Of a DNA stretch of 25,698 bases, positions 1 to 23,919 are shown one piece after another; position 1 is the stretch's first letter, and the number at the start of each line of letters is the position of its first letter. The notes below the pieces were generated by a model. It was not told the origin of the DNA. It saw only the letters and a list, made by a program, of their open reading frames with translations, and ran no database searches. The position numbers and the translations under genes were made by a program. The stretch covers positions 1-25,698 of the forward strand of contig JAFRBA010000289.1 of NCBI GenBank assembly GCA_017405115.1, written 5' to 3'. Origin of the DNA: Kiritimatiellia bacterium (GTDB taxonomy: Bacteria; Verrucomicrobiota; Kiritimatiellia; RFP12; UBA1067).

Positions 1-287
1 CGCGCGACCGCCGCGCACGCACCGACCGCGGCCAGCAGAAGCGCGACGTCATAGGCCACCGACATCGCGTGGATCACCCACGCCGGCAGCTCCGGCTGGA
101 ACATGCGCCCCCCGAAGACGGCGAACCACGTGAACTTCATCGAGCAGACGAAAATCGCTGCGGAGGCCGCCGCCTTGGCCGCGAGGCCCCAACGCCGCGG
201 CCGGACAAGCGTGCAATACGCGACGACCGCACTGGCCGGCCCCAGGAACGGGAGAAGAACTGCAAAGACGAAGTGCGTGAGGGTCAT
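1..287 (-). CDS. Membrane protein, N-terminal part only (runs off window)
   Basis: Translating the minus strand from the ATG at 287 gives 95 open codons to the window edge, starting MTLTHFVFAVLLPFLGP. At least three hydrophobic stretches are visible, around residues 4-26, 36-58 and 68-95, separated by a short basic loop (VRPRRW) and a loop with FGGRMFQPELP. This is an integral inner-membrane protein. An AAGGTGG sequence lies just upstream of the ATG. The gene begins 34 bp after the activase stop, so it is probably the third gene of the glycyl radical enzyme unit. Several membrane-bound hydrolases start with similar helices, but nothing here identifies the family. The competing frame over the same bases (MRGLWHQGG...) is Arg/Gly/Pro-rich and looks like a shadow. 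Confidence 0.7.
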   Translation of the reverse strand, partial: MTLTHFVFAVLLPFLGPASAVVAYCTLVRPRRWGLAAKAAASAAIFVCSMKFTWFAVFGGRMFQPELPAWVIHAMSVAYDVALLLAAVGACAAVA

Positions 288-321
288 GTCCACCTTGGTG
301 CCAGAGGCCGCGCAACAGGCT

Positions 322-1167
322 TCACAGCCGCACCGGCTCCCGCTTTTCCGGCATGGTGTCCTTCATCCCGAGCGCGAGGTACTTGGACCTGGCGTAGTCG
401 AGGTACTCGAGCTCCACGACGTCGCCGTCCGCTATGCCAATGGACCTCAGGTAGTCATGCCTGGCGTTGATGTCGGCGCCGTCGGTGCACCCTGGCACGA
501 TAAGCATGCGGACCTCCAGCTTCGCCTTTGCGGCGACCAGGCGCTCCAAGTTCGCCTTGACGACCCTGTTCGAGACGCCGGTGTACCGCGTGTGCAGCGC
601 GTCGTCCTCGGCCTTGTAGTCGGGGAGCCACATGTCGGTGACCGGCAGCAGCCTCTCGATGGCCGCAGGCGGCGCGTAGAGCGAGGTGTCCAGGCAGGTG
701 CGCAGCCCGGCGGCGCGGCAGGCGGCGAAGAAGTCGTACGCCCACTCCCAGAAGAAGAGCGGCTCGCCGCCGGAAAGCGTCACCCCGCCGCCGGTGCTCT
801 CGTAGAACGGCATGTCCTCGAGCGCCTTCTTGACGAGGTCGTCGATGGTCCACGGCCTGCCGTAGAGCTTCAGCGCGCGCGTCGGGCACGTTGCCTCGTC
901 CATCGTGCACTTCTCGTGGTGCCTGCAGAGGTGCTGGAAACGCGCCCACTGCGCCTCCGGGCTGATGGACTCCGGATTGTGGCACCACACGCACTTCAGA
1001 GGGCACCCCTTGACGAAGAACGTGGTGCGCACCCCCGGCCCGTCGTGTATGGCGAAGCGCTTCGTGTCCAGCAAAAGCGGCGTCTTCACGCGCCGTTCGC
1101 GCGCCACGAGAACGCCGGGAAGCATGGCCGCCGCCGTGCCGGCCCCTATGAACTCCCTCCTTCTCAT
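322..1167 (-). CDS. Glycyl radical enzyme activase (radical SAM, PflA family) with Tat-like N-terminus
   Basis: Protein of 281 aa. By family, it cleaves S-adenosylmethionine with a 4Fe-4S cluster to put a glycyl radical on its partner enzyme. The radical SAM motif CxxxCxxC is seen at C55, C59 and C62 (GCPLKCVWCHNPES), preceded by the activase signature HDGPGVRTTFF at 41-51. GGGVTLSGGEPL follows at 126-137. A short insert holds C81, C87 and C94, fewer Cys than the two-cluster ferredoxin-like insert of many activases. The start at 1167 has a strong GGAGGTGAG site and lies 5 bp after the stop of the glycyl radical enzyme, so the two are translated together. Oddity: residues 1-22 (MRRREFIGAGTAAAMLPG...) look like a twin-arginine signal, unexpected for a SAM- and flavodoxin-dependent cytoplasmic enzyme. 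The frame stays open upstream, but that part is a shadow of the neighbour. Confidence 0.93.
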   Translation of the reverse strand: MRRREFIGAGTAAAMLPGVLVARERRVKTPLLLDTKRFAIHDGPGVRTTFFVKGCPLKCVWCHNPESISPEAQWARFQHLCRHHEKCTMDEATCPTRALKLYGRPWTIDDLVKKALEDMPFYESTGGGVTLSGGEPLFFWEWAYDFFAACRAAGLRTCLDTSLYAPPAAIERLLPVTDMWLPDYKAEDDALHTRYTGVSNRVVKANLERLVAAKAKLEVRMLIVPGCTDGADINARHDYLRSIGIADGDVVELEYLDYARSKYLALGMKDTMPEKREPVRL

Positions 1168-1172
1168 CTCGC

Positions 1173-3494
1173 TCACCTCCCGATCTCCTCTGCGCGGCGG
1201 ATGTAGGCGTCCTGCTCGGCCTTCGGAAGGTCGTTCCACCGCACGTTCCAGCCGCATACGCGGACCTGGAGGTTCTCGTACTTCTCGGGATGCGCCTGGG
1301 CGTCCCTGAGCTCCGCCGCGTCGAAGACGTTGAACTGCATCATGAAGCCGCCGTTCGCGTAGTACTGGTCGAGGAGGACCTTCATCATCTCGAGGCCCTT
1401 GTCGCCGGCCACGGTGTACGGCAGCAGCATCACGTCGAGCGGGAAGTCGCCCGGGAAGTCCCGCGAGTCGAGCGCCCCGAGGGTCTGGACGAGCGCCGTG
1501 ACGCCCTCCGTGTCGGCTCCCATCGTCGGCGAGAGGTTCTTGGAGAACTCCTCCCCCCGCCTGCGACCGTCCGGCGTCGCGCCCGTCTTGGCGCCCTGCA
1601 CGATGAACTGCCGCGCGTTGTGCCCGCTCATGCCGAACCTGCCGCCGCGGGAGTTGGGCCGGGCGTTTATCTCCGCGGAAAGGCGCTTGGAGATCTCCCG
1701 CCCGAGGGCGTTCGCCTCGCGGTCGTTGGTCCCCCACTTGCGCTTCGAGCGCAGCATCCTCAGCCGCAGGTCCTCGCGGCCGTCCCAGTTGGCCGCCATG
1801 AGCGCGCCGAGCCCGGAAAGCGTCAGCTCCCCCTTCTCGTACACGAGCTCCTTCACCGCGAGCAGCGCGTCCACGGCCGTGCCGAAGCCGGAGAGGCATA
1901 CGCCCGTGCGGTTGCCGGTGCGCGTGCCGCAGGAGAGCGCGTCAAGCCCGGTCCTGGCGCTGTACTCGCCCGCAAGCGACGCGACGAGGGCGGGGTTGAC
2001 ATCGTCGAGGTGCTGCTCGAAGACGAAGAAGAACCCCCTTACCTCGTCGGCCGCGGACGCCGCCCGCCGCAGGTACTCCGCCTTGAACGCGTCGAAGTCT
2101 GCGGCGGCGAACTTGCCGTCCTTCGCGTCGGCGAGCATCAGCTCAACGACCTTGAGCAAGTTGACGTGGCCGCCGCCCAGCCCGTTTCCGGACTCCGGGG
2201 TGCAGAACTCGTAGCATCCCTTGGTGACGAAGCGCCTGGCGTCGTCGGCGGGGTAGCCAAGGTGCTCCAGGACGGCGCGCACGGGCAGTTCGCCTATGAA
2301 CGACAGCGGACGGTGCCTGCGGGCCATGTCCAGCGCCTTGTAGAGGATTCCCTTCGGCGTGTTCGGTGCGATCTTGAGGTGGAACTTGGGCGTTGTGAGC
2401 GCGCACTTGTCCATCACGTCGAGTATTACGTACGAGAGCGGATTGTACTCGGTCGTTCCGTCCGCCTTCGTGCCGCCCATCGTGACGGGCTGCCCCCAGT
2501 AGTTGTCGATGGAGCCCCACTGCCAGAGGAAGTGCGCGAACTGCTCGCGGAACTCGGCCTCGGTGGTGCGCCCTGCGGCGAGGTCGGCGCGGTAGTAGGG
2601 CCAGAGCGTGTGGTCTATGATCGAGAGGGAGCGCGCCTGCACGCCCTCGAAGTGCTCGCTCAAGACGAAGTACAGGTAGATGAACTGCATCACGTCGTAG
2701 GCCGTCTGCGGCGGCCCCTTCCGCAGCCGTTCGATGCACTCCGCCTGGCGAAGCGCCCTCCCGCCGCCGCGCGCACGGCCCTGCGCGGCGAGCCTAGCGA
2801 GGAGCCGGTCGATCGCGTCGGACGCCGTTCGCTCCGCGCGGTAGTACGACAACTCGTCCTTCCAGTTGTCCATGAGGCGCTGCCTCATCCCCGGGAAGCC
2901 AAGCGGCAGCACCTTGTCCCATTCCGGTATTATGTGGTCGAAGTCCTTCCACATCGTCCATCGCCCGATCGCGTTCCCCTCGTCGACGCGCGCGCACACC
3001 TCGGGGTAGAACTTCGCCGATATCGCCGCGTTCCGCCGGCCCGTGACGCTGCACATCGGCCGCCCGTAGCGATTCCAGAGCGAGAACGCCGGGAACCAGT
3101 CAAGCGGCGAGACGTCGATGGCCACGTTGTCGCAGAGCCACGCAAAGCATGCGGCCTTGACGACGTTCCAGGGCTCCTTGGGCTCCAGCTCGTCCGCAAT
3201 CGCCAAGATCCTCTCCCTGGCCGTCGCAGCGTCGACGCCAGTCGACGGGTCGGTCACGTCCATGCGCCATTTCCACTCGATGTAGCGCGCCTCGTTCGTG
3301 AGCGTCGCCACGGGCGGAGGCGGCGGGGGCTTCGGCACCCACGACTCCCCGCGGGCGAATGCGCACGGCGCCTCCACCGACGCGGCAACGGCGAACGCCG
3401 CCGCGCCGATCCAGAGAAACCGTGAACGCCCTTTCGGCACCTCGCACGAGACCCGACTTCCCCCTGGACGCACCATTCTCTTGACTACCGGCAT
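1173..3494 (-). CDS. Glycyl radical enzyme (PFL-like) with apparent Sec signal peptide
   Basis: Protein of 773 aa with a PFL-type barrel and a C-terminal glycine-radical domain. The thiyl cysteine is C427 in TKGCYEFC; E429 matches the Glu of the GCxE motif of dehydratase/lyase-type members, and C431 is an extra nearby Cys. The glycyl radical residue is G748 in RVCGW near the C-terminus. The family does radical dehydration, C-C, C-N or C-S cleavage or decarboxylation; GCYEF does not let me name a substrate. True PFL has adjacent Cys-Cys here, so this is probably not pyruvate formate-lyase. The N-terminus is odd: residues 1-25 are basic, 26-39 hydrophobic (FLWIGAAAFAVAAS), a plausible cleavage site follows AFA at 45-47, then a PKPPPPPP linker. 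The ATG at 3494 has AGGGGG upstream; the next in-frame ATG is six codons in, and no well-placed start removes the signal. The activase follows 5 bp downstream. Confidence 0.93.
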   Translation of the reverse strand: MPVVKRMVRPGGSRVSCEVPKGRSRFLWIGAAAFAVAASVEAPCAFARGESWVPKPPPPPPVATLTNEARYIEWKWRMDVTDPSTGVDAATARERILAIADELEPKEPWNVVKAACFAWLCDNVAIDVSPLDWFPAFSLWNRYGRPMCSVTGRRNAAISAKFYPEVCARVDEGNAIGRWTMWKDFDHIIPEWDKVLPLGFPGMRQRLMDNWKDELSYYRAERTASDAIDRLLARLAAQGRARGGGRALRQAECIERLRKGPPQTAYDVMQFIYLYFVLSEHFEGVQARSLSIIDHTLWPYYRADLAAGRTTEAEFREQFAHFLWQWGSIDNYWGQPVTMGGTKADGTTEYNPLSYVILDVMDKCALTTPKFHLKIAPNTPKGILYKALDMARRHRPLSFIGELPVRAVLEHLGYPADDARRFVTKGCYEFCTPESGNGLGGGHVNLLKVVELMLADAKDGKFAAADFDAFKAEYLRRAASAADEVRGFFFVFEQHLDDVNPALVASLAGEYSARTGLDALSCGTRTGNRTGVCLSGFGTAVDALLAVKELVYEKGELTLSGLGALMAANWDGREDLRLRMLRSKRKWGTNDREANALGREISKRLSAEINARPNSRGGRFGMSGHNARQFIVQGAKTGATPDGRRRGEEFSKNLSPTMGADTEGVTALVQTLGALDSRDFPGDFPLDVMLLPYTVAGDKGLEMMKVLLDQYYANGGFMMQFNVFDAAELRDAQAHPEKYENLQVRVCGWNVRWNDLPKAEQDAYIRRAEEIGR

Positions 3495-3546
3495 GAACGC
3501 AATCCCCCTCGACGATTACATTATATCATAATTGGCGCATAAAACG
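3420..3546 (-). repeat. Promoter-leader repeat, copy 1 (fused in frame to the glycyl radical enzyme)
   Basis: This segment matches 5133-5249. Bases 3458-3494 and 5171-5207 are identical over 37 bp, encoding MPVVKRMVRPGG and the following base. Upstream, the -10 box, the spacer and the Shine-Dalgarno are nearly identical. Downstream, 38 bp align without gaps but with about a third of the bases changed, while EVPxxRSR is kept in the peptide. Copy 1 carries about 10 extra bases between CGTTTTATG and the -10 box. Here the leader reads directly into the signal peptide of the glycyl radical enzyme. Confidence 0.85.
3520..3528 (-). promoter_or_regulatory. Extended -10 promoter of the glycyl radical enzyme gene
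   Basis: The minus strand reads TGATATAAT, an extended -10 whose TGA is also the stop codon of the preceding GH31 gene. A transcription start about 7 nt on would give a 5' leader of roughly 20 nt that contains the AGGGGG ribosome-binding site. No clear -35 box is visible, which fits an extended -10 promoter. The element lies in a sequence repeated at 5133-5249. Confidence 0.65.
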
Positions 3547-5100
3547 CGGGAGTCGCCCCAGATGGACATCTGCGAGGCGAAGCTTCTTGGGCCCGCCATG
3601 CAACTCCCCAAGGTCGTCCAGCCACCGCCCCTCCGGCAGGCGAACGACAACGTGTCCGCCCGGTTCGACCACCGGCGCAACAAGCCAACGATCGCCCAAC
3701 ATGAACTGCTGCCGACAGTCGCCTGCCCCAAACCCTGGGAACTCGTACTCCATAGTCCGCACAATCGGCTCGCCGGTCTTCGCCGCATGGTCGGCTAGTT
3801 CAAGTATGTACGAAGCGAAGTTGACGTGCAGTTCCGCAAAGCCGCGACAAATCGCCAATCCCTCCGCATCGAGCAGCCTCCATGGCGCGGCGGAAAACTG
3901 CATCATCGGCATCATGGCCTGCGCCGCACACGAACGGATGAAGAGCTCTCGGTCAAATCCCCTGCCGGCGGCAAACGTCTTGCCGCCGCATCCGCCGCCC
4001 ACCATGTCCGGGCAGACGAACGGACAGCCCAGCAGCCCAGCAGCCTGGACGTCTGGCACGAGCTTGCGCAGGTCTTCCCACGAGTGCCGTTTGTCCTGCA
4101 GACGGCATACGAGCGGCAATCCGCCGAACTTCCACCCCGCGCGCATTTCGTGAAACGGGAAGCGCATCGCGAAGCGTCCCCACGCCCCCGTGTAGTCGGC
4201 CGGCGTCGCGTCGCCAAGCCTAGGCCGACCGGGATCGGAGCCGTCCGGCTTGCGGAGGATGCATTCGGCGTCCGTGAAGTCAAACTTGTAGCCGTCGAAC
4301 CCGAACGACGATGCGAACGCCTTGTAGCGGACTTCGAGAACGTCTCTGACGTGTGCATCGAGAACGTCAAGGATGCCCGCGGCCGGAACACCCCAGTAGT
4401 ACATCCCGTCGTAGGTGCGCCCTGTAGTGTCGTTTGCCAGCAGCAGTCCATCGTTTGCCGCTTCGGTGTAGAAGCGGGCCTCCCTGTTGATGTACGGCGT
4501 CGTCCAAAGTATCGTGCGGAAGCCCGCTGCACGGCATTTGGCGAGCATCTCCCTAGGCGCGGGGAAGAGCGTCTCGTCGAATTCGAGGTCGCCGTAGCGC
4601 CGCTTCGGCGCCCACCCGTCGTCAATCATCAAGACCCCGCACGGAATGCGGCTGTCGACGATCCCTCGCACATACGACTCGACGAAGGCCTGTCCGTTTC
4701 CAACGGCACAGCTCTCGACCCACGTGTTGAACTGCGGCTTCGCAAAGAATATGGACTCCGGGCGGCGCCCCGATGGCGCGAAGTGGCGGCGACATGCTGC
4801 AAGGTATGCCGTCTTCAGGCTGCTCCCCGCCACTACGGGCTTGACCGAGCCATGCTCCGAAGTGATGTAGAGGACGCCGTTCGTCCAGGCAAACGTGAAG
4901 GGAAAATCGCTCCAGACGTACCGCCCCGCCGTAGAGACGAAGAACGGTGCGCATGGGTTGCAATAGCTGCAGACGGACAGATTCCGCGGCGGCGTGGTGT
5001 TGTACGGCTGGTCCTCGCCGTAAAAGGTTGTGCCGCCATGCCAACGCTCCCCGGGAAGCGGCTCTATTACGCTCAAGGTCGCTGCTAAAACGAGAAACAT
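3526..5100 (-). CDS. Secreted GH31-type alpha-glycosidase
   Basis: Protein of 524 aa resembling compact glycoside hydrolase family 31 enzymes such as the MYORG-like branch, which hydrolyse terminal alpha-glycosidic bonds. Seen: MIDDGW at 158-163; FGFDGYKFDFTDAE at 267-279 with the likely nucleophile D274; RLQDKRHSW with candidate acid/base D336 (assigned from memory of MYORG, so less certain); CPDMVGGG at 363-370; and a C-terminal beta-sandwich around 445-524 with LVAPVVEPG. The first 12 residues (MFLVLAATLSVI) are hydrophobic but short and without a basic n-region, a weak signal peptide by themselves. The start at 5100 is supported by AAGGAG 8 nt upstream. It overlaps the end of a leader ORF in another frame, suggesting translational coupling. 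Its stop TGA forms the TG of the next promoter. The substrate cannot be read from the sequence. Confidence 0.87.
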   Translation of the reverse strand: MFLVLAATLSVIEPLPGERWHGGTTFYGEDQPYNTTPPRNLSVCSYCNPCAPFFVSTAGRYVWSDFPFTFAWTNGVLYITSEHGSVKPVVAGSSLKTAYLAACRRHFAPSGRRPESIFFAKPQFNTWVESCAVGNGQAFVESYVRGIVDSRIPCGVLMIDDGWAPKRRYGDLEFDETLFPAPREMLAKCRAAGFRTILWTTPYINREARFYTEAANDGLLLANDTTGRTYDGMYYWGVPAAGILDVLDAHVRDVLEVRYKAFASSFGFDGYKFDFTDAECILRKPDGSDPGRPRLGDATPADYTGAWGRFAMRFPFHEMRAGWKFGGLPLVCRLQDKRHSWEDLRKLVPDVQAAGLLGCPFVCPDMVGGGCGGKTFAAGRGFDRELFIRSCAAQAMMPMMQFSAAPWRLLDAEGLAICRGFAELHVNFASYILELADHAAKTGEPIVRTMEYEFPGFGAGDCRQQFMLGDRWLVAPVVEPGGHVVVRLPEGRWLDDLGELHGGPKKLRLADVHLGRLPRFMRQL

Positions 5101-5301: not shown

Positions 5302-7581
5302 TCACCTGAGTTCATCCAGCAGAGTCCGACACAGCAGCACCTTCTCGCGGAGATCCTGCGGGACGAAATAGTATCTAACCGACGGAATGAATCCGATTCG
5401 CGAATCCCGCTCGACGATCGGAAGCAGCTCCTTGGCCGCAGCCAGCTCCCGCCTGACCGCTTCGGCCATTTCCCCAGTCAGCCGCGCACGGTCGGCTGCG
5501 GATTTCGCCTTCAAACGCTTGTCGCGAGCAAGCGTGAAACGCATCTGGTCGGCGGCGGACTGGAAATGGATCCTTTCGCCGCAGAACAGATCCAGCTCCC
5601 GCCGTGCCTCCGCCCGCTTGTCGGCCTCCATCATCGGAATCGCCTCTTCGAAAATACGGCATCCCTCCGCAAACCCGTTGGCAACATTCTGCATCAACCA
5701 GACCCATGTATCGGGCGGATAGACGCCGCACCAGCTGACGACGTCGTCATACGGGAAGAAGTTCATCGTCGCTCGGTAGCCTGTCGGCTCAAGGTACAAC
5801 GGATTGGCCGGCCCCATGTGCTGTGGGTCGCTATAGAGGGTGCTGATGTTATGCGGAAACGACGCAAAGCCTTCGGAAAAGGCCCGCCAAGCGCGGCGCA
5901 CCGTCGGCGCGGCGGCGGAGCCGTACTGCTCCGCGGCAAGCCTGTCCAGCAGGCCGTCAGGCGAAAGACCTGTTCTGTCGGCAAGTTCGAAAATCCTGAA
6001 AGCCGCGCACGGATAGGTGTCGATCGACCACGAAAGCAATATTGAATCGACCCTTGCGGCGCGGAGATTGCATGCGTGTCGCGCCACCTGCTCCAATGTC
6101 GGATAATACGGATACGACGCCAGCTCTAACGAATTCGCCGCCTGCACCTTCGCCGCCAGACCAAGTCCGGCATCGGCCGCCAGACTCCACCGCTCTAGGG
6201 CCTGCCGCCCCGGACCGACAACCGAGATCGCATAGTCCCGCTCCTCCACATACACGCCACCACGCCGGAACTTCATGCGACTTTCGCTGCCGCAAAGGAG
6301 CTTGACGTTCCGCTTCGGCAGCCGGGAGATGACATCCTTTGCCGCATTCGTCGGCCACGCCCAGTCCCAGACCAGAACCTGCGCGTCCGGCGCAGACCGG
6401 TGGACGCCCGCTATCATCGCGCTGTTGGCCTCGACGATCAGGTCGGCGTCGGAACGCATGCGGCATCTCGGACACGATTCTCGTTTCCAACGCGAGGCGC
6501 AGTGCGTCAAGTTCTCTGAATAGGTTATCGTAATGATGCCGCCAAGCCCCGGCACTGACGCAAAGACCTGCGCCAGGGAATCCTCAAGCCATCGGCGCGT
6601 TTCCGGAGACGAAGTGCAGAATGCGTATTGTTCGAATCCCTGCGGGCCGTAGGGCGAACCTTTCATGTCGCGACGGGCAGGATCGACCTCGAAGAAGCTC
6701 CCGAGCTGCCCGCGCGGCTCGTTCATGTACAGGAAGACCTTGATGCCGTACTTGGCGGCCCGTGCAACCAAGACGCGCAAGTTGGCAAGGCGATTCTCGC
6801 AGCCATTGCCGAACTCCGGGTATTTGGGATCCTTCGCCAATGTCCATAGGACGGCATGCAGCCATATGCCATTGACGCCTTCGCCAGCAAGCCTGGCCAG
6901 CAGTCCCTCCGGGCAGGACGACACCTCGGGGTCTTCCAGCGAATCGCAGTACGTCCCCGTATAGGGGTAGACTATGCGAAGGGCGCCGTTCCCGATCGCC
7001 GCCTGTCTGTGCATGCCGGCAGGCACGTTCGCGAACTCGGAGAAGAATCCGAAGCGCGGCGATTCGGCCGCCGCGACGTCAACGCCCTCCTCCTCCAGCA
7101 CGCGGGCGAGGCGTCTGCGGGCCACGCGAAGTCCGTCATCGGACTTCCGCCAGACGACAAGCGCACACTTCGGCTTGAGATCTCCAAGTTTGTAGAACAG
7201 GAAGTCCTCCTCCTTGAAGGCAAAAAGGAGTTCGTCGCGCGTCATGTCCAGAACCTTGAACAGCTGCTCGTAGGGAAGCAGATGCCAGTTCCGCTTGAGA
7301 ACCGTCACGTATCCGCGACGCCGCCATTCCGGCTGCACGTGCGGTTCCGGCGGAAGACCGAGTTCCTCCGCCGTTTCCGTGACTTCGGACTGCGTTGCTC
7401 CGATCGCCCGCGCCAGGACGTCCTTCGGCACGAGAAACCAGTTGCGCCAGACATACGCGCTCAAAGCGTCTGGAAATGGGGCGAACGTCACAGGCTCGCG
7501 CGTGCAGGGTTCGCCCGGAAATTCCGCGACGCCGAACAAAACGGCAGGCAAAAACGTCAACAGCAGCACAAGCGATTTCAT
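5302..7581 (-). CDS. Secreted TIM-barrel glycoside-hydrolase-like protein, family not recognised
   Basis: Protein of 759 aa with a clear signal peptide (MKSLVLLLTFLPAVLFGVA). Residues 46-75 and 97-128 form a degenerate tandem repeat, RNW(F/H)L(V/L)P followed by a helix pattern with T(Q/R)xE. From about 200 onward it reads like a (beta/alpha)8 hydrolase: GVNGIWLHAVLW, KYGIKVFLYMNEPRG, ITITYSENLTHC, QVLVWDWAWP and SILLSWSIDTYP. A helical C-terminal part (about 600-759) is rich in Arg and Glu. The Glu in MNEPRG or YSENL could be catalytic, but I cannot assign a GH family. Its start overlaps the regulator stop as ATGA, so it is the last gene of the operon and translationally coupled. It could be a hexosaminidase-like or other exo-acting enzyme; the role in glycan breakdown is inferred from context. 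Confidence 0.8.
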   Translation of the reverse strand: MKSLVLLLTFLPAVLFGVAEFPGEPCTREPVTFAPFPDALSAYVWRNWFLVPKDVLARAIGATQSEVTETAEELGLPPEPHVQPEWRRRGYVTVLKRNWHLLPYEQLFKVLDMTRDELLFAFKEEDFLFYKLGDLKPKCALVVWRKSDDGLRVARRRLARVLEEEGVDVAAAESPRFGFFSEFANVPAGMHRQAAIGNGALRIVYPYTGTYCDSLEDPEVSSCPEGLLARLAGEGVNGIWLHAVLWTLAKDPKYPEFGNGCENRLANLRVLVARAAKYGIKVFLYMNEPRGQLGSFFEVDPARRDMKGSPYGPQGFEQYAFCTSSPETRRWLEDSLAQVFASVPGLGGIITITYSENLTHCASRWKRESCPRCRMRSDADLIVEANSAMIAGVHRSAPDAQVLVWDWAWPTNAAKDVISRLPKRNVKLLCGSESRMKFRRGGVYVEERDYAISVVGPGRQALERWSLAADAGLGLAAKVQAANSLELASYPYYPTLEQVARHACNLRAARVDSILLSWSIDTYPCAAFRIFELADRTGLSPDGLLDRLAAEQYGSAAAPTVRRAWRAFSEGFASFPHNISTLYSDPQHMGPANPLYLEPTGYRATMNFFPYDDVVSWCGVYPPDTWVWLMQNVANGFAEGCRIFEEAIPMMEADKRAEARRELDLFCGERIHFQSAADQMRFTLARDKRLKAKSAADRARLTGEMAEAVRRELAAAKELLPIVERDSRIGFIPSVRYYFVPQDLREKVLLCRTLLDELR

Positions 7582-10200: not shown

Positions 10201-13200
10201 CTACCAGACCATGATCACCGATCCCCGCTGGAACTTCAGCGTGAGAGAATCGGCCGTCTTTGCGACATGCCAGTACGGCGGCGCCTCGACCGCCAGGTTG
10301 TCGAGCCCGGACATCGTACCGCCCGTCACGCTGAGGACGCGGTAGCGAACCGTATTGGAAAGCAGTTCCTCGTTGGTGAATCTGAGCGTCGCGCCGGGCA
10401 GGAAGGCGACATTTCCGGCGAGCGCCGGAACCGTGCCCGCCACTAGGTCGGCGCAGTCCACCGTCCAGTCCCCTCCGATCCTGACGGTTCCGTTGTTGAC
10501 CGTGCCGCTCGTTCCCGACACCCCGCCGAACGTGAAATCGAACCCGCCAAGGTCGAGCGTGCCGCCCGCAAGGACGAGTTCGGATCCAGACGGAATTGCG
10601 CGGTCGGTGCCGGCCTTGAGAAGCCCGGCTTCTATGACGGTGGCTCCAGCATAGGTGTTCGTCCCGGCGAGCGTAAGCGTTCCAGGGCCCTTCTTCGTGA
10701 TCCCTCCGCCGACATTGTCGGCAAGCGTGACCACAAGGCCCTCGGCAAGCAAATCCTTGCCGTAGTACGCGGAGGCCGTCGCCGTCGTGTAGTCACAGCC
10801 GTGCGAAGTGATGCGAATGCTCGTGACGCGACCGGAGCGCGAATCGAAGTCCGCATACGCCGACGCGCCCCAGCCGTCGCCGGATATGACGACCCTGGGC
10901 GGACCCACCAGCACGTTGGTCCCAAGTGTCCCCATGTCGATGGCGGACACTCCCTTACCGGACGGCGCGACGAGGGGGCCGACCGTGCCGGAAGAGTTTT
11001 TGTTCGCGACGGACAGTCCCGCCCCGTTCTCGAACACGGTCACCGGATCCATCGCCCCGCCGCCCACGCCGGTTCCCTTCCATGGATCCCCGAAGAGCCA
11101 TCCGCTGCCGCTAAGGACGAATGTGCCGCCGTTGAAGTTGAGATACGCGTGCATCCCGGACCAGCCGACGGTCGCCGCAGTGCGGTACTTCTCTATTCCT
11201 GGCGCAGTAACCGTCGCGCCGGTGTTGAAGTTCAGTATCGTGGTGGTGTCCTTTGCCAAACCGCAGTTGATTTTCTCCGAAGTCGTGAACGACGCGGCGG
11301 CGCTGCCGCCGCCGACGTTCAGCACGGCCGTGGACGCACTCGCGTTGCATGTGTATATCCGGCCGGGCTGATGGAAGTACGTTCCTGACGAGACGTCCAG
11401 AATCGCATGTCCGTTGTGCGCAAGATACAGCATCGGCGCAGTGCCGCTGGCCACGATGCCGCCCCTTGTGGTACTCACATAGCCGCCCCCGACATGCATT
11501 ATGGCCATCGAGCCGTTTCCGGCCATGCACTGCGCGGCCAGCTGTTCGTATTTTCCGCCCGTCACCTCGAGGTAGCCGTATGCCCCGTTCCCCGACGACA
11601 GACCGACTCCGGCAGAATTGACGCTAGCCTCCTTGGAGCCAACGTTGCCGAAATGGCCGCCCCGTATGTACACGCCTCCGCGCGAAGTGGCGTTGTTGCC
11701 GCCGACTACCAGTCTGTTTGTGATCGCCGCGCCCGCGCCAACTTCGAGAATTCCGCTCGAATACCCGCCGACGACTATCGCATTGGCATAGTAGTCGGCA
11801 GTTCCGGCGGAGTTCGTGTATGCGAAAGGCCCGCCGTTCAGCATCGACCACGACTGCACGCACGAGTTTGAAATCGCCGCGCGCCCGGGAACGTCGCGTA
11901 CGGTCGACAGGCTTCCCACGACAAACGACGCCCCGTTCGTAAGCGACAGCAAGACGTCGGACGCGCCGTCGACAAGCACGTTGCCCGGTATTCCGCCGGC
12001 GTGCGCGCCCTCGGATATGACCTCGCGCAGGTTGATTCTGTCGGGACCAGTGACGCGAAGCGTTCCCTCCTTGGCGCCAATCCTGAACCCGTCCGTTCCC
12101 GGACTCGAGAAATTGAGGACTCCGCCGCCCGTCTTCATCCACATCGAGTCGGAGGCCAGCATCTCCAGCCCCGACACCGAGGCGTTCTCGCCGATTTCCA
12201 CGTCAAGGCCCACGCCGGCTCCATTCAGGAACGAGGCCGTGCCCGCAAAACCGTATATCTCCGGAAGCGACCAGTTGGCCACCGACGCGGAGAACGAGCC
12301 TGCGCCAACGACGGAGACCTTGGAGTAGTCGGGCACGAAAGTCGGATGCTTCGCGACGACGGTGGCGCGCACCACGTTCGCCGTGAGCGGACCAGAGAAC
12401 GTGCCGTCCGCGCCGCCGAGAACGACGCGCCCGTCCTTGTAGCTGGAGTTGTTCAGCCCGAGCGTCAGGCAGCCTTCGCCGGTGAGCGCCCCCGCGAAGC
12501 ATATCCTCCATATGCCGGTGTTCAACTCCGGCGAGACGGCGAGGGAATCGCCGGGGGCATGGACTTCAAGCCCCGCCCACGCATGCTCGTTCGTTCCGAC
12601 ATAGCCCGGATTGATCAGCATCTTCGCCCCGGCTCCGTTGACCACGACCGAACGATGCTGCGACTGCGCGCCAAGCATGCGGATGGACGTCTTACTCCCC
12701 ATGTAGACCGGAGGCGCGCCGGGGCCGCCAAGGGAGAAGTTGGTGTAGAGCAGAATTCGGCTGTACTCGGCGTAGTTCCCCGTGTAGTCGCTCAGCACGA
12801 TAGGCCCGGCGTTCGTTATCGCGCCGTTCTCGAATCGCAGATACCCGCTGCCGTCCCTCTTCGTGAGCGTGTGGCCGCCCATGTCGAACAAGCCGAATAT
12901 CTTGCTGTACGTGCTGCCGCCGAACTGAATCCAGCTGCTGGAATGGTCGGGATTGACCGATGCGTCGCCAGTGAGCGTGAAATACGGGAAGGTACGGGCA
13001 AATGCGCCGCCCTTCACGATCGCCACGCCGTCGCCGTATACGCCGTCGCCGGCCGCGGACACGTGCGTCCCTGCCGTGTCATACCATCCCGAAGTGGTGT
13101 CGATCTGTGAACCGGGCTCGAACCTGTATCTGTATTTGCCCGTGGAAAGCCTGCTGTTGTTGTAGAACCCGTTCGTGCCGGCTCTAAAGACGATTTCGCC

Positions 13201-13827
13201 CGTGAAGTCCTTGAAATCGACGTTCGGCATCTTGAATGTCGTAAGCCCCTCCTTGGCAAACGTGCCCGAGCCCTTGAGCGTGGCCGTTATCGTTGTGGCG
13301 TTCGTCACGGAGAACGTGCCGCCGTCGAGCTGAAGCGTTCCCGCATGCGCGAAATCGGAGGCGACGTGCGTCTCGCCCGGCCCGGACACGGAGATCGTGT
13401 CCGACGAAGACGTGGCGACGGTTGAGTTGACGACCAGCCTCGCTCCGTTGGTCGACCCGTTCGAAAACGCCAGGGCCCCGGAGAGCGACGCAAGAGCCCC
13501 GTCGCCGGGAGCGGACCCGACCACAAGCGACGCCGAGTCTTCCCCGGCGATGCCCACCGCCCCGGCCGCAAGCGTCCCGCCGGCAATATCCACCACGGCG
13601 TCGACGCCCGTACGCTGCACGAGCGACTTGACGGACGTCGAGGACTTCTCCAGCGTTATCGGCCCCGCACCGTCCGCGCCGGCCGACGTTATCGAGACGT
13701 CGGTCCCCGAACCGTCCGGCACGACGCCGCCACGCGCCGGGATGTCTGCCGCCATGCATGTCGCCGCCGACAGGAACGTCGCGCCCAGCGCGACGCGCCA
13801 AGCCGCCATGTTGGATTTAGTGTTCAT
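10201..13827 (-). CDS. Large secreted beta-strand repeat protein (autotransporter passenger-like), no barrel
   Basis: Protein of 1208 aa with a signal peptide (residues 1-27, ending CMAAD). The body is Gly/Thr/Ser/Asn-rich with short beta-strand repeats typical of a right-handed beta-helix. An autotransporter-associated strand repeat is clear at about 1043-1070 (KKGPGTLTLAGTNTYAGAT, then GLLKAG), followed by SELVLAGGTLDLGG. There is no C-terminal autotransporter barrel and no PEP-CTERM motif. The chain ends LTLKFQRGSVIMVW. It is probably an exported surface or matrix protein that binds glycan or forms a scaffold for the enzymes around it; this role is inferred. AGAGGAG precedes the ATG. The start overlaps the preceding gene by 11 bp, and the stop is 12 bp before GH30, so it is inside the operon. 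Confidence 0.88.
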   Translation of the reverse strand: MNTKSNMAAWRVALGATFLSAATCMAADIPARGGVVPDGSGTDVSITSAGADGAGPITLEKSSTSVKSLVQRTGVDAVVDIAGGTLAAGAVGIAGEDSASLVVGSAPGDGALASLSGALAFSNGSTNGARLVVNSTVATSSSDTISVSGPGETHVASDFAHAGTLQLDGGTFSVTNATTITATLKGSGTFAKEGLTTFKMPNVDFKDFTGEIVFRAGTNGFYNNSRLSTGKYRYRFEPGSQIDTTSGWYDTAGTHVSAAGDGVYGDGVAIVKGGAFARTFPYFTLTGDASVNPDHSSSWIQFGGSTYSKIFGLFDMGGHTLTKRDGSGYLRFENGAITNAGPIVLSDYTGNYAEYSRILLYTNFSLGGPGAPPVYMGSKTSIRMLGAQSQHRSVVVNGAGAKMLINPGYVGTNEHAWAGLEVHAPGDSLAVSPELNTGIWRICFAGALTGEGCLTLGLNNSSYKDGRVVLGGADGTFSGPLTANVVRATVVAKHPTFVPDYSKVSVVGAGSFSASVANWSLPEIYGFAGTASFLNGAGVGLDVEIGENASVSGLEMLASDSMWMKTGGGVLNFSSPGTDGFRIGAKEGTLRVTGPDRINLREVISEGAHAGGIPGNVLVDGASDVLLSLTNGASFVVGSLSTVRDVPGRAAISNSCVQSWSMLNGGPFAYTNSAGTADYYANAIVVGGYSSGILEVGAGAAITNRLVVGGNNATSRGGVYIRGGHFGNVGSKEASVNSAGVGLSSGNGAYGYLEVTGGKYEQLAAQCMAGNGSMAIMHVGGGYVSTTRGGIVASGTAPMLYLAHNGHAILDVSSGTYFHQPGRIYTCNASASTAVLNVGGGSAAASFTTSEKINCGLAKDTTTILNFNTGATVTAPGIEKYRTAATVGWSGMHAYLNFNGGTFVLSGSGWLFGDPWKGTGVGGGAMDPVTVFENGAGLSVANKNSSGTVGPLVAPSGKGVSAIDMGTLGTNVLVGPPRVVISGDGWGASAYADFDSRSGRVTSIRITSHGCDYTTATASAYYGKDLLAEGLVVTLADNVGGGITKKGPGTLTLAGTNTYAGATVIEAGLLKAGTDRAIPSGSELVLAGGTLDLGGFDFTFGGVSGTSGTVNNGTVRIGGDWTVDCADLVAGTVPALAGNVAFLPGATLRFTNEELLSNTVRYRVLSVTGGTMSGLDNLAVEAPPYWHVAKTADSLTLKFQRGSVIMVW

Positions 13828-17978: not shown

Positions 17979-17992
17979 CTTGACATATCAAG
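17979..17992. promoter_or_regulatory. Imperfect palindrome upstream of the operon promoter, possible operator
   Basis: CTTGACATATCAAG pairs with itself at 12 of 14 positions and lies 26-39 bp upstream of the -10 box. It also contains the stop codon of the preceding gene. Position and symmetry suit a dimeric regulator, perhaps the GntR-LacI protein encoded in the operon. I see no second copy in the window, so this is tentative. Confidence 0.25.
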
Positions 17993-19253
17993 TTTTTGTA
18001 CTGAAGCTGAATTCTCCCTTGAGCGGATTGCCGGGATGCACGGCCGAGTAGCACGAGAACGTGTAGGTCTCGCCGCCCGGCGGAACGTCCAGCACGACGT
18101 GGCAGGGCTGGTCTATCACGCAGCGGGCGACGTCGCCGAGATATCCGCGGCCGGCGGGTGTCTCCGGCCGGTTGAGCGGCATGAAAGTCGGCAGCATGAG
18201 CCTGTCGCCGCCATAGAGAGACCTGTCGGCAAGCCGCGACATCGTGTCGTCCGTGCAGTGCTGCTGGTCGAGGGAGCAGTTCGTCCAGACTCTCGCGCGC
18301 AGCGCCTTGACGAGCCTCGGAAACATGGAATGGTGTCCGTGGTGGTTAATCTTCGCCACGTCGACCGGCCCTACGCTCTCGGCAAGTTCGTCCTCGATCT
18401 CGCGGCGAATGCCGTCGCCACGCTTCCAGCCGTCGGTGAAGTCCCCTGCAGTGAAATACCTGAACTTGCCGTACTCGACGACCATTCCGCAGCTCATGCC
18501 GTTCTCGTTCAGAACCTTCGGACTCTCCTTCAACCGCTCGGTGTAGTGGTCGAACACCGTCCCGTCGGGACGGACGGAGCGCCCGTTGGCGCAGACGTTG
18601 AACACCTTGAAGCCCGGCCATTTCGCGTCGTCGCGCATCCGGAACTGCCCCTTGTCGCCGAGCCTGAACTTCTCGATCTTCGTGCCCTGCGTCTCGGCGA
18701 GATGCGCGTAAAGCGCCCGCATCTGGACTGGCGTCCCGTCCCGCGACGTGTCCAGCACGGCAAGCGGATCGTCGAAGCCTGGCCAGGCACGGTCAACGGC
18801 TCGGCCGAACTTCAGGAACCTCGCCGCGTCGGCGATGCCGCACCTGTTGAACTCGCCGAGCGACGAGCGCCCGAGGGGACCTCCGTGATAGCGTTTCCCT
18901 CCGCCGTGGTCTTCGTGGTAGTGCGACAGGTGGAGGTAGTCCACGGCATCCCCGTGCGGATTTACGCCGAGAACGTACTTCGCGGCGAACTCGCCGGCCC
19001 TGATGCCCGGGTCGCATGGCAGGGGAACCTCCGCCGGCGTGCCGTAGAACCGCATCGAGTCCCCGCAGTCCAGCAGCATCGACGTCCCGTCGGGGAAGAT
19101 GTGGAACATGCACTCGGAGCGCCCCGTGTAGATGTAGTGCACCTGGTAGTGCCCGGCGCGCCACTCGCGCCGACCTGGGCCTGAGCCGCCGCACAGGCGC
19201 AACGCGCCGGCCGACAGCAGCCCGCCAAGGAATTCTCTTCTGCGTGTTTTCAT
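17988..19253 (-). CDS. Tat-type exported metallo-beta-lactamase-fold hydrolase
   Basis: Protein of 421 aa. The N-terminus MKTRRREFLGGLLSAGALRL is a good twin-arginine signal. The metal-binding signature HxHxDH is at H111, H113, D115 and H116 (LSHYHEDHGGG). YFTAGDF at 266-272 and KINHHGHHS at 301-309 supply further ligands; these resemble the ComEC-type branch of the fold more than true beta-lactamases. It probably acts folded and metal-loaded in the periplasm; the substrate is unknown. The ATG at 19253 has GGGAGG upstream. A longer frame reaches 19502, but that part is a shadow of gatA. It starts 23 bp after gatA and may be co-transcribed with it. There is no obvious functional link to either neighbour. 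Confidence 0.87.
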   Translation of the reverse strand: MKTRRREFLGGLLSAGALRLCGGSGPGRREWRAGHYQVHYIYTGRSECMFHIFPDGTSMLLDCGDSMRFYGTPAEVPLPCDPGIRAGEFAAKYVLGVNPHGDAVDYLHLSHYHEDHGGGKRYHGGPLGRSSLGEFNRCGIADAARFLKFGRAVDRAWPGFDDPLAVLDTSRDGTPVQMRALYAHLAETQGTKIEKFRLGDKGQFRMRDDAKWPGFKVFNVCANGRSVRPDGTVFDHYTERLKESPKVLNENGMSCGMVVEYGKFRYFTAGDFTDGWKRGDGIRREIEDELAESVGPVDVAKINHHGHHSMFPRLVKALRARVWTNCSLDQQHCTDDTMSRLADRSLYGGDRLMLPTFMPLNRPETPAGRGYLGDVARCVIDQPCHVVLDVPPGGETYTFSCYSAVHPGNPLKGEFSFSTKT

Positions 19254-20717: not shown

Positions 20718-20726
20718 ATTATACCA
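20718..20726 (-). promoter_or_regulatory. Extended -10 promoter of gatA
   Basis: The minus strand reads TGGTATAAT, about 40 bp upstream of the TTG start. The TAA inside this box (20719-20721) is the stop codon of the sensor kinase gene, so promoter and stop overlap. The leader contains the GGAGGAG site. Confidence 0.65.
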
Positions 20727-23700
20727 GATTATTGCGTCCGCCGCCCTCCCGGCGGAAGAGTCCGCGCAGCTTCGTCCCCGTGACCGGCTTCGCGATCACC
20801 TTCGCGAACACCGACATGTCGAAGGTCGAGCCGACGTCGACGTCCGCCGTGATCGCCATCACCGGGATGGTCGCGAGCCTCGCATCGGCCTTCATCGCGA
20901 CCGCGAGCTGGTGTCCGTCCATCTCCGGCATCCAGACGTCCGTCAGCACGGCGTCCGGCGTCCAGTCCTTCATCGCCGCAAGCGCGGCGACCCCGTTCTC
21001 CGCGAGCCGCACGTCCTTCACCCCGATGTTCCGGAGGTGGATCTCGAGTATCTCGCGGTTCATGAGCATGTCGTCGACGACGAGGATGCGACCGGGTATC
21101 TCGCCGGCCGGCTCCGGCGCGCCCTGAGGCGCGGGGCGGACGACCTCCAGCGACGGTATCCGCAGCGCGAACGTCGTCCCCCTGCCGACCTCGCTCGACA
21201 CCTCGACCGTCCCTCCGGCGTTGTCGACGATGCGCTTGACGATCGGGAGCCCCAGCCCCGTGCCGCGCATCTCGCCCTCGGCGTGCTTCATGCGGCTCGA
21301 GATGTCCTGCACGAAAGGGTCGAAGAGGTGCGCCATCTTCTCGCCGGAGATGCCGCAGCCGGTGTCGCGGACGGACAGCGAGAGCGTGCGCGTCGCCGGT
21401 TCCCATCCGTACGTCACCTCGACCTCTCCGCTCTCGGTGAACTTGGCCGAGTTGCCGACGAGGTTGATGAGCGCCTGCTTCAGGCCCTGGTGCGAGAGCT
21501 TCAGGATGGGCGGCGGCGCGGACGACGTGCGCCGCACGGCGAGCTTGACGCCGCGCTTGCTGAATTTGTAGCCGAAGATCGCGGTCATCTCGTCCAGTAT
21601 CTTCTGGACGTCGCACTCGCCCGAGCGCATGTGCATTGCGCCGGAGTCGAGCTTTGACAGGTCGAGGATGTCGTTGATGAGGTCGAGAAGCGCGTTCGCG
21701 CTGAGCCGGATCCCCTTGACGTACTTCTGGCGCCGCTCCTCGTCGCAGTCCGCCGGCGTCAGGAACTCCGCGAAGCCGATGACGGCGTTGAGCGGCGTGC
21801 GCAGCTCGTGGGACATCATCGCGAGGAATCGCGTCTTCGCGCGCGAGTACTCCTCGGCGACGGCGGCCGCCTCGCGCGCGATCCGCATCTGCCGCTTCAA
21901 CAGGACGATCATCACGAGAGCGAAGACGACGACAAGCGACAGCGCGGCGAAGCCGACGACGACGAGCATCCGCTCGAACTCCTCGTCCGTCATGCCGAAC
22001 ACGCGCCGCGCGACGTTGCGCTCCGCCGCCGCCTTGACGAACATCTCCTGCATGTCGACTGGCTCGATGCCCGACACCGCCTTGCGGATGATGCCCACCA
22101 GCTCCGCCGGCGCGTCGCGCGCGGCCCACAGCACCAGCTCGTCGTTGTTGCCGTCGGACCCCAGCATGTACGCGTAGGTCCTCGGCACCGGGAGCGAGAA
22201 GACGGAGACGCCGCCCATCGCCGCGACATCCACATCGCTCGGATACGGTATCCAGAACTTCGTGTCGCCGCGCAGGAACTTCGCCTCGGCCGTCTGGATG
22301 CCGGTCTGCGGATGCGTGTCGAACCTGAGCCCCGTGCGCTTCGAGAGCTCGGCGAGGAACTCCTTCGCGAAGTGGACGAGGTTCCCGCCCGCGTTCTTCA
22401 GGTTGACCGGCCACGGCGAGAAGTCGATCATGACCGGCGACGGGTCCTTGAGGCGCTCCTTGAGCCACTCGGCCTCGCGGAACGTCAGCACCGACATCTC
22501 GTTGCGGATGCCGTAGTGGTGCTCCGTCAGCATTCTCATGTACTTCGGGAAGTCGTCGCACACCCCGTCGAACGCCTTCTCTAGCTCGAGGAAGACGTCG
22601 CGGCGGCTCGGCGCGACGCAGACGTACATCGGGTGAGAGACGTAGAGGTGGAGGGCGCGCTCGTTGTCGAGGGCCGGCATCTCGACGTCGACGCAGGCGT
22701 CGATCTCGCCGTCGAAGTACGCCTTAATCATCTCGCTGTCCGTCGCGTACTCGACGCACACGACGCCCGCCGAGTTTCCGTCCGCCTCTAGGTCGCGCTT
22801 CACGCGGTCCGCGCTGAACGACCCGGCGAGCAGCCCGACCCTCATGCCGTTCCACGTCGTCTGGTCGCCCGCCTTGAAGCGGTTGCCGCGCTTTGTCCAC
22901 AGGTAGACGCGCAGCATCCCGATCGGCGTGTGCGAATAGAGGAGCTTCTCGCTCCGCTCCGCCGAGAACCCGAGTCCGCAGAAGACGTCGAGCCGCCCGG
23001 CCATCACGTCCTTGAGGCTCTCCTCGTACGGGCCGTAGACGTAGTCCATGTCCCACTGCGCGTGGCTGGCGATGGCGTTGAGCCAGTCCTCGATCACGCC
23101 GGACCTCTCGCCGTCCGGCGTGACGTCGAACAGGTTGCCGCGCATGTACGCGGCGACGCGGACGCGCCGCTTCGGCTTCTTGACGCCGAGGATGCGCGCG
23201 CGCAGGTCGTCGTACCTGTCGATGCGCTCGATGAGGCACTCGCGGTACGCCTTCTGGAGCCGTTTGAGGAGGTCGAGTCGGTCCTTTCGGACGGCGAAGT
23301 AGACGTTGCGCGACCCGATCGGCACGACCTCCACGAGTCCCTCGGGGCGCCGGCCGTCGGAGGTGTAGAGGAACAGGAGGTCGACCTTCCCCTTCCGCAG
23401 CGCGGCGACGGCCGCCTCGCTCGTCTCGAACTCGACGTACTCGGGCGCAAGCTTCGCCTGCCTGAAGTAGCGCTCACGGTCGTCGCAGCGCCCCTGCGAC
23501 ACGGGCGAGTAGCCGACCTTCATGCGGGGCCATTCCGTGATCCTGGCGGACAGCATCTCCTTCGCCCGCGCCGGCGTCGCGTAGAGAGCGAAGTGCATCC
23601 GCGCGAGCGGCTGGAGAGGGAAGGCATAGCCGCGGCAGAGCTCCGGCGTCCTGAACGCGCACTTGATGACGTCGGTATTGCGGCGGTCGAAGAGGTTGTC

Positions 23701-23919
23701 GCCGCCGAAGGGAACGTCCTCCGCCTCGACGCCCGCCTTCTCGAAGACGTCCTTCATCACCTCGCCGGCGAACTCGACGTCCGCCGCCGCCCAGACGTCC
23801 ATCGACGGATTGCGCTCGCAGTCCGACACGCGCACCGTCTCGGCGGACGCCTCTGCGGCCGCCAGCGCGACTGCGGCGGCGACTGCGGCGAAGGCGCATC
23901 TCTTTGCTGACACCATCAT
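20719..23919 (-). CDS. Hybrid sensor histidine kinase with multiple periplasmic Venus-flytrap domains
   Basis: Protein of 1066 aa. After a signal or anchor (residues 7-26) come SBP_bac_3-like domains at about 28-247 and 252-470, and a degenerate third-like region at 490-620. A membrane helix lies at 651-674. The cytoplasmic part has HisKA with H704 (MMSHELRTPLN); HATPase with N823, DTGCGI at 852-857 and GTGLGL at 886-891; and a receiver domain at about 944-1056 with D949/D950, phospho-acceptor D994 and K1044. This is the BvgS/EvgS type of arrangement, suggesting it senses small solutes in the periplasm and passes phosphate along a relay. No PAS, HPt or DNA-binding output domain is present, and no partner regulator is in the window. 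The start is ATGATG at 23919/23916 with no Shine-Dalgarno, 11 nt after a -10 box. The stop lies inside the gatA promoter. Confidence 0.94.
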   Translation of the reverse strand: MMVSAKRCAFAAVAAAVALAAAEASAETVRVSDCERNPSMDVWAAADVEFAGEVMKDVFEKAGVEAEDVPFGGDNLFDRRNTDVIKCAFRTPELCRGYAFPLQPLARMHFALYATPARAKEMLSARITEWPRMKVGYSPVSQGRCDDRERYFRQAKLAPEYVEFETSEAAVAALRKGKVDLLFLYTSDGRRPEGLVEVVPIGSRNVYFAVRKDRLDLLKRLQKAYRECLIERIDRYDDLRARILGVKKPKRRVRVAAYMRGNLFDVTPDGERSGVIEDWLNAIASHAQWDMDYVYGPYEESLKDVMAGRLDVFCGLGFSAERSEKLLYSHTPIGMLRVYLWTKRGNRFKAGDQTTWNGMRVGLLAGSFSADRVKRDLEADGNSAGVVCVEYATDSEMIKAYFDGEIDACVDVEMPALDNERALHLYVSHPMYVCVAPSRRDVFLELEKAFDGVCDDFPKYMRMLTEHHYGIRNEMSVLTFREAEWLKERLKDPSPVMIDFSPWPVNLKNAGGNLVHFAKEFLAELSKRTGLRFDTHPQTGIQTAEAKFLRGDTKFWIPYPSDVDVAAMGGVSVFSLPVPRTYAYMLGSDGNNDELVLWAARDAPAELVGIIRKAVSGIEPVDMQEMFVKAAAERNVARRVFGMTDEEFERMLVVVGFAALSLVVVFALVMIVLLKRQMRIAREAAAVAEEYSRAKTRFLAMMSHELRTPLNAVIGFAEFLTPADCDEERRQKYVKGIRLSANALLDLINDILDLSKLDSGAMHMRSGECDVQKILDEMTAIFGYKFSKRGVKLAVRRTSSAPPPILKLSHQGLKQALINLVGNSAKFTESGEVEVTYGWEPATRTLSLSVRDTGCGISGEKMAHLFDPFVQDISSRMKHAEGEMRGTGLGLPIVKRIVDNAGGTVEVSSEVGRGTTFALRIPSLEVVRPAPQGAPEPAGEIPGRILVVDDMLMNREILEIHLRNIGVKDVRLAENGVAALAAMKDWTPDAVLTDVWMPEMDGHQLAVAMKADARLATIPVMAITADVDVGSTFDMSVFAKVIAKPVTGTKLRGLFRREGGGRNNLV

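Follow-up and report, generated by a model that had tools for sequence, protein, structure and literature searches.

In gut bacteria of the class Kiritimatiellae, a glycyl radical enzyme (GRE), a fragile and oxygen-sensitive catalyst, and in many cases also its activating enzyme appear to be sent out of the cytoplasm. This reading comes from the comparison of homologues and gene neighbourhoods, starting from a stretch of Kiritimatiellia DNA of 25,698 nucleotides (hereafter the window) in which a GRE gene with an N-terminal signal sequence is followed by the gene for a radical-SAM activase with a Tat-like signal. We consider, at a probability of roughly 0.6, that the pair forms an extracytoplasmic GRE system, with the GRE exported by Sec, the activase by Tat and the glycyl radical installed outside, the enzyme probably being of the eliminase type and acting on carbohydrate-derived substrates. 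Export of the system as such is well supported by comparison across genomes. To our knowledge, GREs and their radical-SAM activases are taken as cytoplasmic, since their chemistry depends on SAM, a strong reductant and strict anaerobiosis, and no GRE or activase was described as a Tat substrate or as exported in the titles and abstracts of the open-licence literature that we searched. The GRE and activase families are themselves known; as far as these literature searches reach, what is new is the compartment and the paired signals.

The GRE and activase genes of the window

The 773-residue GRE belongs to an exported type that we designate type A and matches the PFL-like and Gly_radical families of Pfam with 190.7 bits (cut-off 24.3) and 77 bits (cut-off 22.2), respectively. 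Its AlphaFold2 model (mean pLDDT 91.5) contains the ten-stranded barrel with the finger-loop cysteine and the C-terminal glycine, and places a helix at residues 24-41, with the catalytic fold beginning near residue 65. Twelve NCBIfam models for GREs matched the protein, all below cut-off, so that it falls under no equivalog (PFL, HypD, CutC, HPAD, HpsG/HpfG), the best score being 213 bits against a cut-off of 678.2 for the subfamily model TIGR01774.

A preliminary description of this DNA had proposed that intact catalytic motifs lie behind an export signal with a hydrophobic core at residues 26-39, an AFA cleavage site and a proline-rich linker. Codons 427 and 748 indeed specify cysteine and glycine, and the core, A45-F46-A47 and the linker were all found as claimed. 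The signal is of the Sec type, as judged by a sequence rule, and has no twin arginine. It had further been held that no well-placed alternative start would remove the signal. This holds less strictly, since in-frame GTG codons within the linker, of which codon 53 has a weak Shine-Dalgarno sequence, make such a start possible on paper. The retention of the signal in homologues (see below) nevertheless speaks against a misread start, a reading that we reject on this ground.

The activase gene begins 5 bases past the GRE stop codon and has its own Shine-Dalgarno-like sequence, GGGAGG. The predicted protein carries the CX3CX2C and GGEP motifs, with Cys55, Cys59 and Cys62 invariant in 37 aligned members; the two-cluster ferredoxin-type insert of larger activases was not found in the aligned members, in which a short stretch with cysteines 81, 87 and 94 remains. 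The twin-arginine-type motif of the window protein is R-R-E-F. Among the best 120 of 7987 activase homologues, 117 were classed by rule as Tat-type (81 with R-K and 36 with R-R), 2 as Sec-type and 1 as having no signal. TatC was detected in 12 of 13 relatives that have a Tat-type activase and a scored GRE, the exception being the incomplete assembly G002. The structure model of the activase was poor (mean pLDDT 66.1) and was left unused. The Tat-like signal of the adjacent activase, the match of signals across genomes and the lineage that lacks both signals along with a detectable Tat system are additions beyond the preliminary description.

Table 1. Features of the GRE-activase locus, with positions in the window
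Feature	Position	Strand	Basis
GRE, 773 aa, exported type (type A)	1173..3494	-	ATG start, Pfam, homologues, structure model
Signal sequence, residues 1-47 (long basic n-region, core 26-39, A-F-A then R48)	3354..3494	-	Sequence; Sec by rule; model helix
Proline-rich linker and conserved mature N-terminus RGESWVPKPPPPPPVATL, residues 48-65	3300..3353	-	Homologue comparison
Cys427 codon, catalytic (G-C-Y-E; Glu429 next)	2214..2216	-	Homologue conservation
Gly748 codon, glycyl radical site (RVCGWNVRWNDL)	1251..1253	-	Homologue conservation
GAGGGGG, Shine-Dalgarno-like, GRE gene	3504..3510	-	Sequence
TATAAT box directly after the GH31 stop codon	3520..3525	-	Sequence, consensus match only
GH31 glycoside hydrolase gene, 31 bases upstream of the GRE gene	3526..5100	-	PF01055 80 bits, cut-off 23.5
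Radical-SAM GRE-activating enzyme, 281 aa	322..1167	-	TIGR02494 226.8 bits, cut-off 174.35
Tat-like signal of the activase, MRRREFIGAGTAAAMLPGVLVA	1102..1167	-	Tat-type by rule
Apparent membrane protein start, downstream of the activase, leaves the window	3..293	-	ORF; no Pfam match

Conservation and pairing of the signals

Signals were classed with a home-made rule based on hydrophobicity and the twin-arginine motif. This rule, together with the core start used for the type E subfamily, was altered once, after the first result, and the counts quoted here are those of the second version. With the first version, 13 of the 19 GREs that looked Tat-type by eye in genomes combining a signal-free activase with TatC were misassigned, 12 to the class without a signal and 1 to Sec, as was 1 of the 4 in the group with a Tat-type activase; the causes were that Tat cores are less hydrophobic and that the type E core start had been placed too early. 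The second version departs from the classes assigned by eye only in 8 type C proteins, which are weak by eye and Sec by rule.

A search with the window GRE gave 948 homologues at E<=1e-30. The comparison took in the best 120: 105 were Sec-type by rule, 11 Tat-type, 1 had no signal and 3 were not judged. Among the 11 called Tat, only P0062 has a plain Tat signal, the others having a chance R-R or R-K ahead of a strongly hydrophobic core. The single homologue without a signal, P0011, starts inside the linker; those left unjudged are P0052 and P0103, which have late starts, and P0098, a run-together ORF. The latter (1145 aa) was considered as a fusion of a Tat signal-bearing protein with a GRE, and this was rejected because the former signal persists in the middle of the protein, so that two adjacent genes have probably been run together; its front part matches a neighbour gene family member (L060:10896-11963) with 39% identity. 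After the cut site, an RGExW-type stretch is retained in 116 of the 120 homologues and was absent from the sister-clade N-termini that we inspected. This sister clade (P0241-P0360, 120 of the 755 proteins retrieved with the signal-free GRE of locus L081) derives, where sources are named, from Lentisphaeria and Planctomycetes of the PVC group and is 41-46% identical to the window GRE (30 members aligned). It has the same catalytic residues, with Cys, Glu and Gly each present in 120/120, compared with 119/120 for Cys427, 118/120 for Glu429 and 119/120 for Gly748 in the exported type. In contrast, by the same rule 117 of its 120 members have no signal, their N-termini lying at the catalytic core or close to it, and two activases found next to sister-clade genes (L081, L082) keep the full ferredoxin-type insert, unlike window-type activases. 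The mean core cysteine content is slightly lower in the exported set (10.9) than in the sister clade (13.0). Thus the question raised in the preliminary description, whether the signal is kept across genomes, is answered by its presence in 116 of 117 judged close homologues and in no more than 3 of the 120 sister-clade proteins; proteins that start uniformly near residue 60 without a signal, which that description regarded as arguing against export, are confined to the sister clade.

GREs of the window's family (E<=1e-60) occur in 33 of the 144 genomes of the order, often several per genome, and the activase (E<=1e-70) in 33 of the 345 genomes of the class, as one copy in 31 and two copies in 2. 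With the activase mostly single-copy, several GREs of a genome are probably served by the same one. The activase clade also includes members devoid of a signal, so that the dependence of the GRE route on the activase signal can be tested. Within the loci examined, which are a chosen part of the matches, the 14 genomes with a Tat-type activase (including the window's) hold 28 scored GREs, comprising 22 Sec-type, 4 Tat-type and 2 without a signal. The 13 genomes with TatC and a signal-free activase hold 27, of which 19 are Tat-type and 8 Sec-type; six of these 8 are type C proteins with a short uncharged hydrophobic start that is weak by eye, and the other two are type D (G272 and G273). These counts exclude GREs that are fragments or cut by contig ends (e.g. 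L063, L039, L104, L110, the 5-open copy of L119, L137 and L139), fused or unclear starts (L088, L151, L122) and seven GRE genomes with no activase match (G006, G016, G028, G068, G097, G114, G139), in five of which (G006, G068, G097, G114, G139) Sec-type starts were seen by eye. With kinship ignored throughout, Fisher's test for Sec against Tat GREs by activase class gives 7.7e-5 by rule and 6.6e-7 by eye with weak starts left out; at the level of genomes, a clear Sec GRE is present in 13/14 with a Tat-type activase versus 2/17 (p 6.8e-6, or 8.8e-5 on a laxer reading that takes weak starts as Sec), and Tat-type GREs are fewer alongside a Tat-type activase (p 0.011). The activase tree implies about 5 signal changes (4 to 6 in bootstrap trees), 2 of which are forced by well-supported branches. 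Once kinship is taken into account, 2 contrasts rest on well-supported branches, far too few for significance; in these the GRE route agrees in 1.8 of 2 on average and is never opposite.

The same switch is visible within the type E subfamily, which is about 30% identical to the window GRE and whose members are also included in the overall route counts. Its judged members are Sec-type in 2/2 cases with a Tat-type activase (G002, G091), Tat-type in 5/5 with TatC and a signal-free activase (G073, G080, G095, G113, G272) and without a signal in 4/4 where TatC is lacking (G010, two in G021, and G024); the copies of G004 and G143 were left unjudged. In 3 of the 4 signal-free cases another type of activase lies beside or overlaps the gene, and these four proteins may represent a distinct group that is cytoplasmic throughout.

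Of 35 genomes examined for TatC, 29 contain it, the exceptions being G002, G010, G019, G021, G024 and G055. G002 is a 1.4-Mb assembly that also lacks SecY and in which TatA is present. In the other five genomes neither TatC nor TatA/B was found, SecY being found in 5/5. The activase tree unites these five in a single clade (100/100). Neither their activase nor any of their 12 scored GREs has a signal; a Sec-like signal (by eye) is retained by a gene close to the GRE in two of the genomes. A GRE tree from a quick search, supported by SH-aLRT values only and with long-branch warnings, places their signal-free proteins at three distinct points, within subclades B, C and D, all nested in the exported clade (support 99), and the relatives of the C and D subclade proteins use Sec-type signals. 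The count itself is undirected; the nesting and the retained linker suggest that signals were lost in this lineage. Across the order, 24 of the 144 genomes likewise yielded no TatC, so its absence alone is not rare, and draft assemblies can miss genes; among the 33 activase-holding genomes, it is missing only from the five and from G002. One of the five, G010, encodes a GRE in frame behind a beta-lactamase-like PF00144 domain (L055:377-3799, 1140 aa), and G024 also contains a long GRE ORF (L054).

Related enzymes and gene neighbourhood

In its fold and its catalytic pair of Cys and Glu, the window GRE resembles the glycerol/propanediol and hydroxyproline dehydratases (PDB 1r8w, 5i2g, 6vxc), from which it differs in being only 20-23% identical in fold alignments. 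Cys and Glu in the GCYE motif suggest that it belongs with the eliminase-type branch rather than with PFL. In a profile alignment with the glycerol/diol dehydratase (GDH), His187 of the window protein aligns with His164, whereas Asp447, an active-site residue of that enzyme, corresponds to Gly440, and the positions of His281 and Ile283 in GDH are taken by Gln286 and Arg288 (the differences being counted by hand). Gln286 and Arg288 are invariant in 240/240 aligned proteins. GREs of the dehydratase branch are cytoplasmic or reside within microcompartments. The fold matches also include the PflD/YbiW enzymes that act on 1,5-anhydrohexitol 6-phosphates (PDB 8id0, 8id7), the ligands of which are sugar-derived according to the entry titles; the fold matches single out no one substrate. 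We know of no signal in PflD/YbiW GREs.

Neighbours of the GRE gene in the window encode GH31 and GH30 enzymes and a GntR/LacI-type regulator. In other genomes they include GH3, GH92, GH95, an acetyl esterase, SSF and MFS transporters, an AraC-type regulator and metallophosphatases, with a 3-keto-disaccharide hydrolase and GH123 at locus L004; several other scanned neighbours had no Pfam match. Carbohydrate-derived substrates are a suggestion from this genomic neighbourhood. The scan of window proteins and of a part of all neighbours detected no shell-protein domain.

Several further features of these loci were recorded. The window encodes a 759-residue protein (5302-7581) whose start resembles a signal and for which neither Pfam nor NCBIfam gave a match, with a 767-residue relative near a Tat-type GRE (L056:11452-13755), and a protein with a Tat-like signal (17988-19253, start MKTRRREFLGGLLSAGALRLCGG; no Pfam match for 17988-19235). 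It also encodes an autotransporter-like protein of 1208 aa with a passenger-associated transport repeat (10201-13827) and a hybrid sensor kinase that combines SBP_bac_3 solute-binding sensing, HisKA, HATPase and receiver domains (20719-23919). The family of L060:10896-11963, which has no Pfam match and a Tat-like start in L060, occurs near GREs in L060 and L065 and is joined to the GRE in P0098; its HIGxDEE stretch resembles GH20, and it is perhaps a glycosidase. Another family with Tat-like starts recurs near GREs (L058:2858-4303, L060:844-3815, L080:935-2401, L087:711-2345), its sole member scanned, L058:2858-4303, being a calcineurin-like phosphoesterase. Clusters of GRE genes from multiple subfamilies, some in tandem, lie within 8-20 kb at L067, L068 (G089:C37) and L058 (G050:C170). 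The type A GRE of G004 (L004:7929-10135) is broken up into two frames that overlap (508 and 233 aa), reflecting an assembly error or a pseudogene.

Export and the site of activation

We propose that the GRE of the window's lineage crosses the inner membrane unfolded through Sec, would arrive free of the radical and is probably cleaved after AFA, and that the activase, with its 4Fe-4S cluster, would travel folded through Tat, as do the Tat-exported Fe-S and molybdenum enzymes. With the two partners on these routes, activation would occur outside, the glycyl radical being installed after export of the GRE. The GRE and activase must presumably share one compartment, which, where Tat exists, would usually be the outside. 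There the GRE, probably an eliminase-type enzyme, may act on carbohydrate-derived substrates made by the neighbouring glycosidases. In other lineages the GRE itself would leave through Tat and could be loaded with its radical beforehand, and the two signal-free GREs from genomes with a Tat-type activase could leave together with a partner, as in other Tat complexes. The earlier suggestion of an undescribed envelope radical-enzyme system is favoured by the conserved signals of both proteins, their match across genomes and their joint absence where Tat is not detected; actual export, activation outside and the class of substrate are what we infer from these patterns. Taken further, radical-SAM chemistry might itself operate outside the cytoplasm, with the Tat-borne activase using SAM and a low-potential electron to radicalise Sec-exported GREs that attack glycan-derived substrates, while in sister lineages the radical would be loaded inside and the enzyme then exported by Tat. 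We regard this fuller picture as tentative, a little short of even odds. The periplasm is not known to contain SAM or a suitable reductant, and their supply outside the cytoplasm is the main reason for caution. The extracytoplasmic reading is also weakened by the exceptions to the pairing of signals, by Sec-type starts in genomes with no activase match and by the predominance of R-K over R-R in the activase motifs.

A distinctly less probable, though still serious, alternative is that the system is exported with the radical installed before or during export, either by a cytoplasmic activase or in a Tat complex sharing one signal. The Tat-type GREs that accompany a signal-free activase (19/27) fit activation inside followed by folded export, and two signal-free GREs in genomes with a Tat-type activase (G101, G115) would suit hitchhiking, which is described for hydrogenases and formate dehydrogenases (PMC10924467). 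However, the window pair and most of its close kin have separate signals on both proteins, and the window's GRE signal is of the kind without a twin arginine; since Sec moves its substrates in the unfolded state, an installed radical should not survive the passage. It is rather unlikely that the N-terminal stretches serve some purpose other than export, being misread starts, uncleaved anchors of a cytoplasmic enzyme or another form of targeting such as a microcompartment tag. The GTG codons in the linker would allow a later start, some microcompartment GREs bear N-terminal extensions, and we know of GRE activation only from the cytoplasm. Against this stand the near-universal signals of the judged homologues and the residue pattern kept after the cut site, the twin-arginine-type motif of the partner activase, the joint absence of both signals in the lineage without detectable Tat and the lack of shell-protein domains among the proteins scanned; moreover, basic n-regions favour an N-in, C-out topology. 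Automatic names such as formate C-acetyltransferase, and the one MAG copy in two frames (L004), could point to an ordinary or decaying PFL-like enzyme whose export is functionally meaningless. We give this very little credence, as the catalytic residues are near-invariant, the family is expanded in many genomes alongside its activase and the score lies far under the cut-off of every NCBIfam GRE model matched.

The extracytoplasmic reading lends itself to experiment: the natural switch of signals between the partners, together with their joint absence where Tat is not detectable, makes the site of activation directly testable, and the sister clade provides a clean contrast with the signal-bearing close homologues. 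If the exported, evolutionarily maintained pair is real, SAM and low-potential electrons would have to reach the envelope of a gut anaerobe, and the exported GRE would add radical chemistry to extracellular glycan breakdown.
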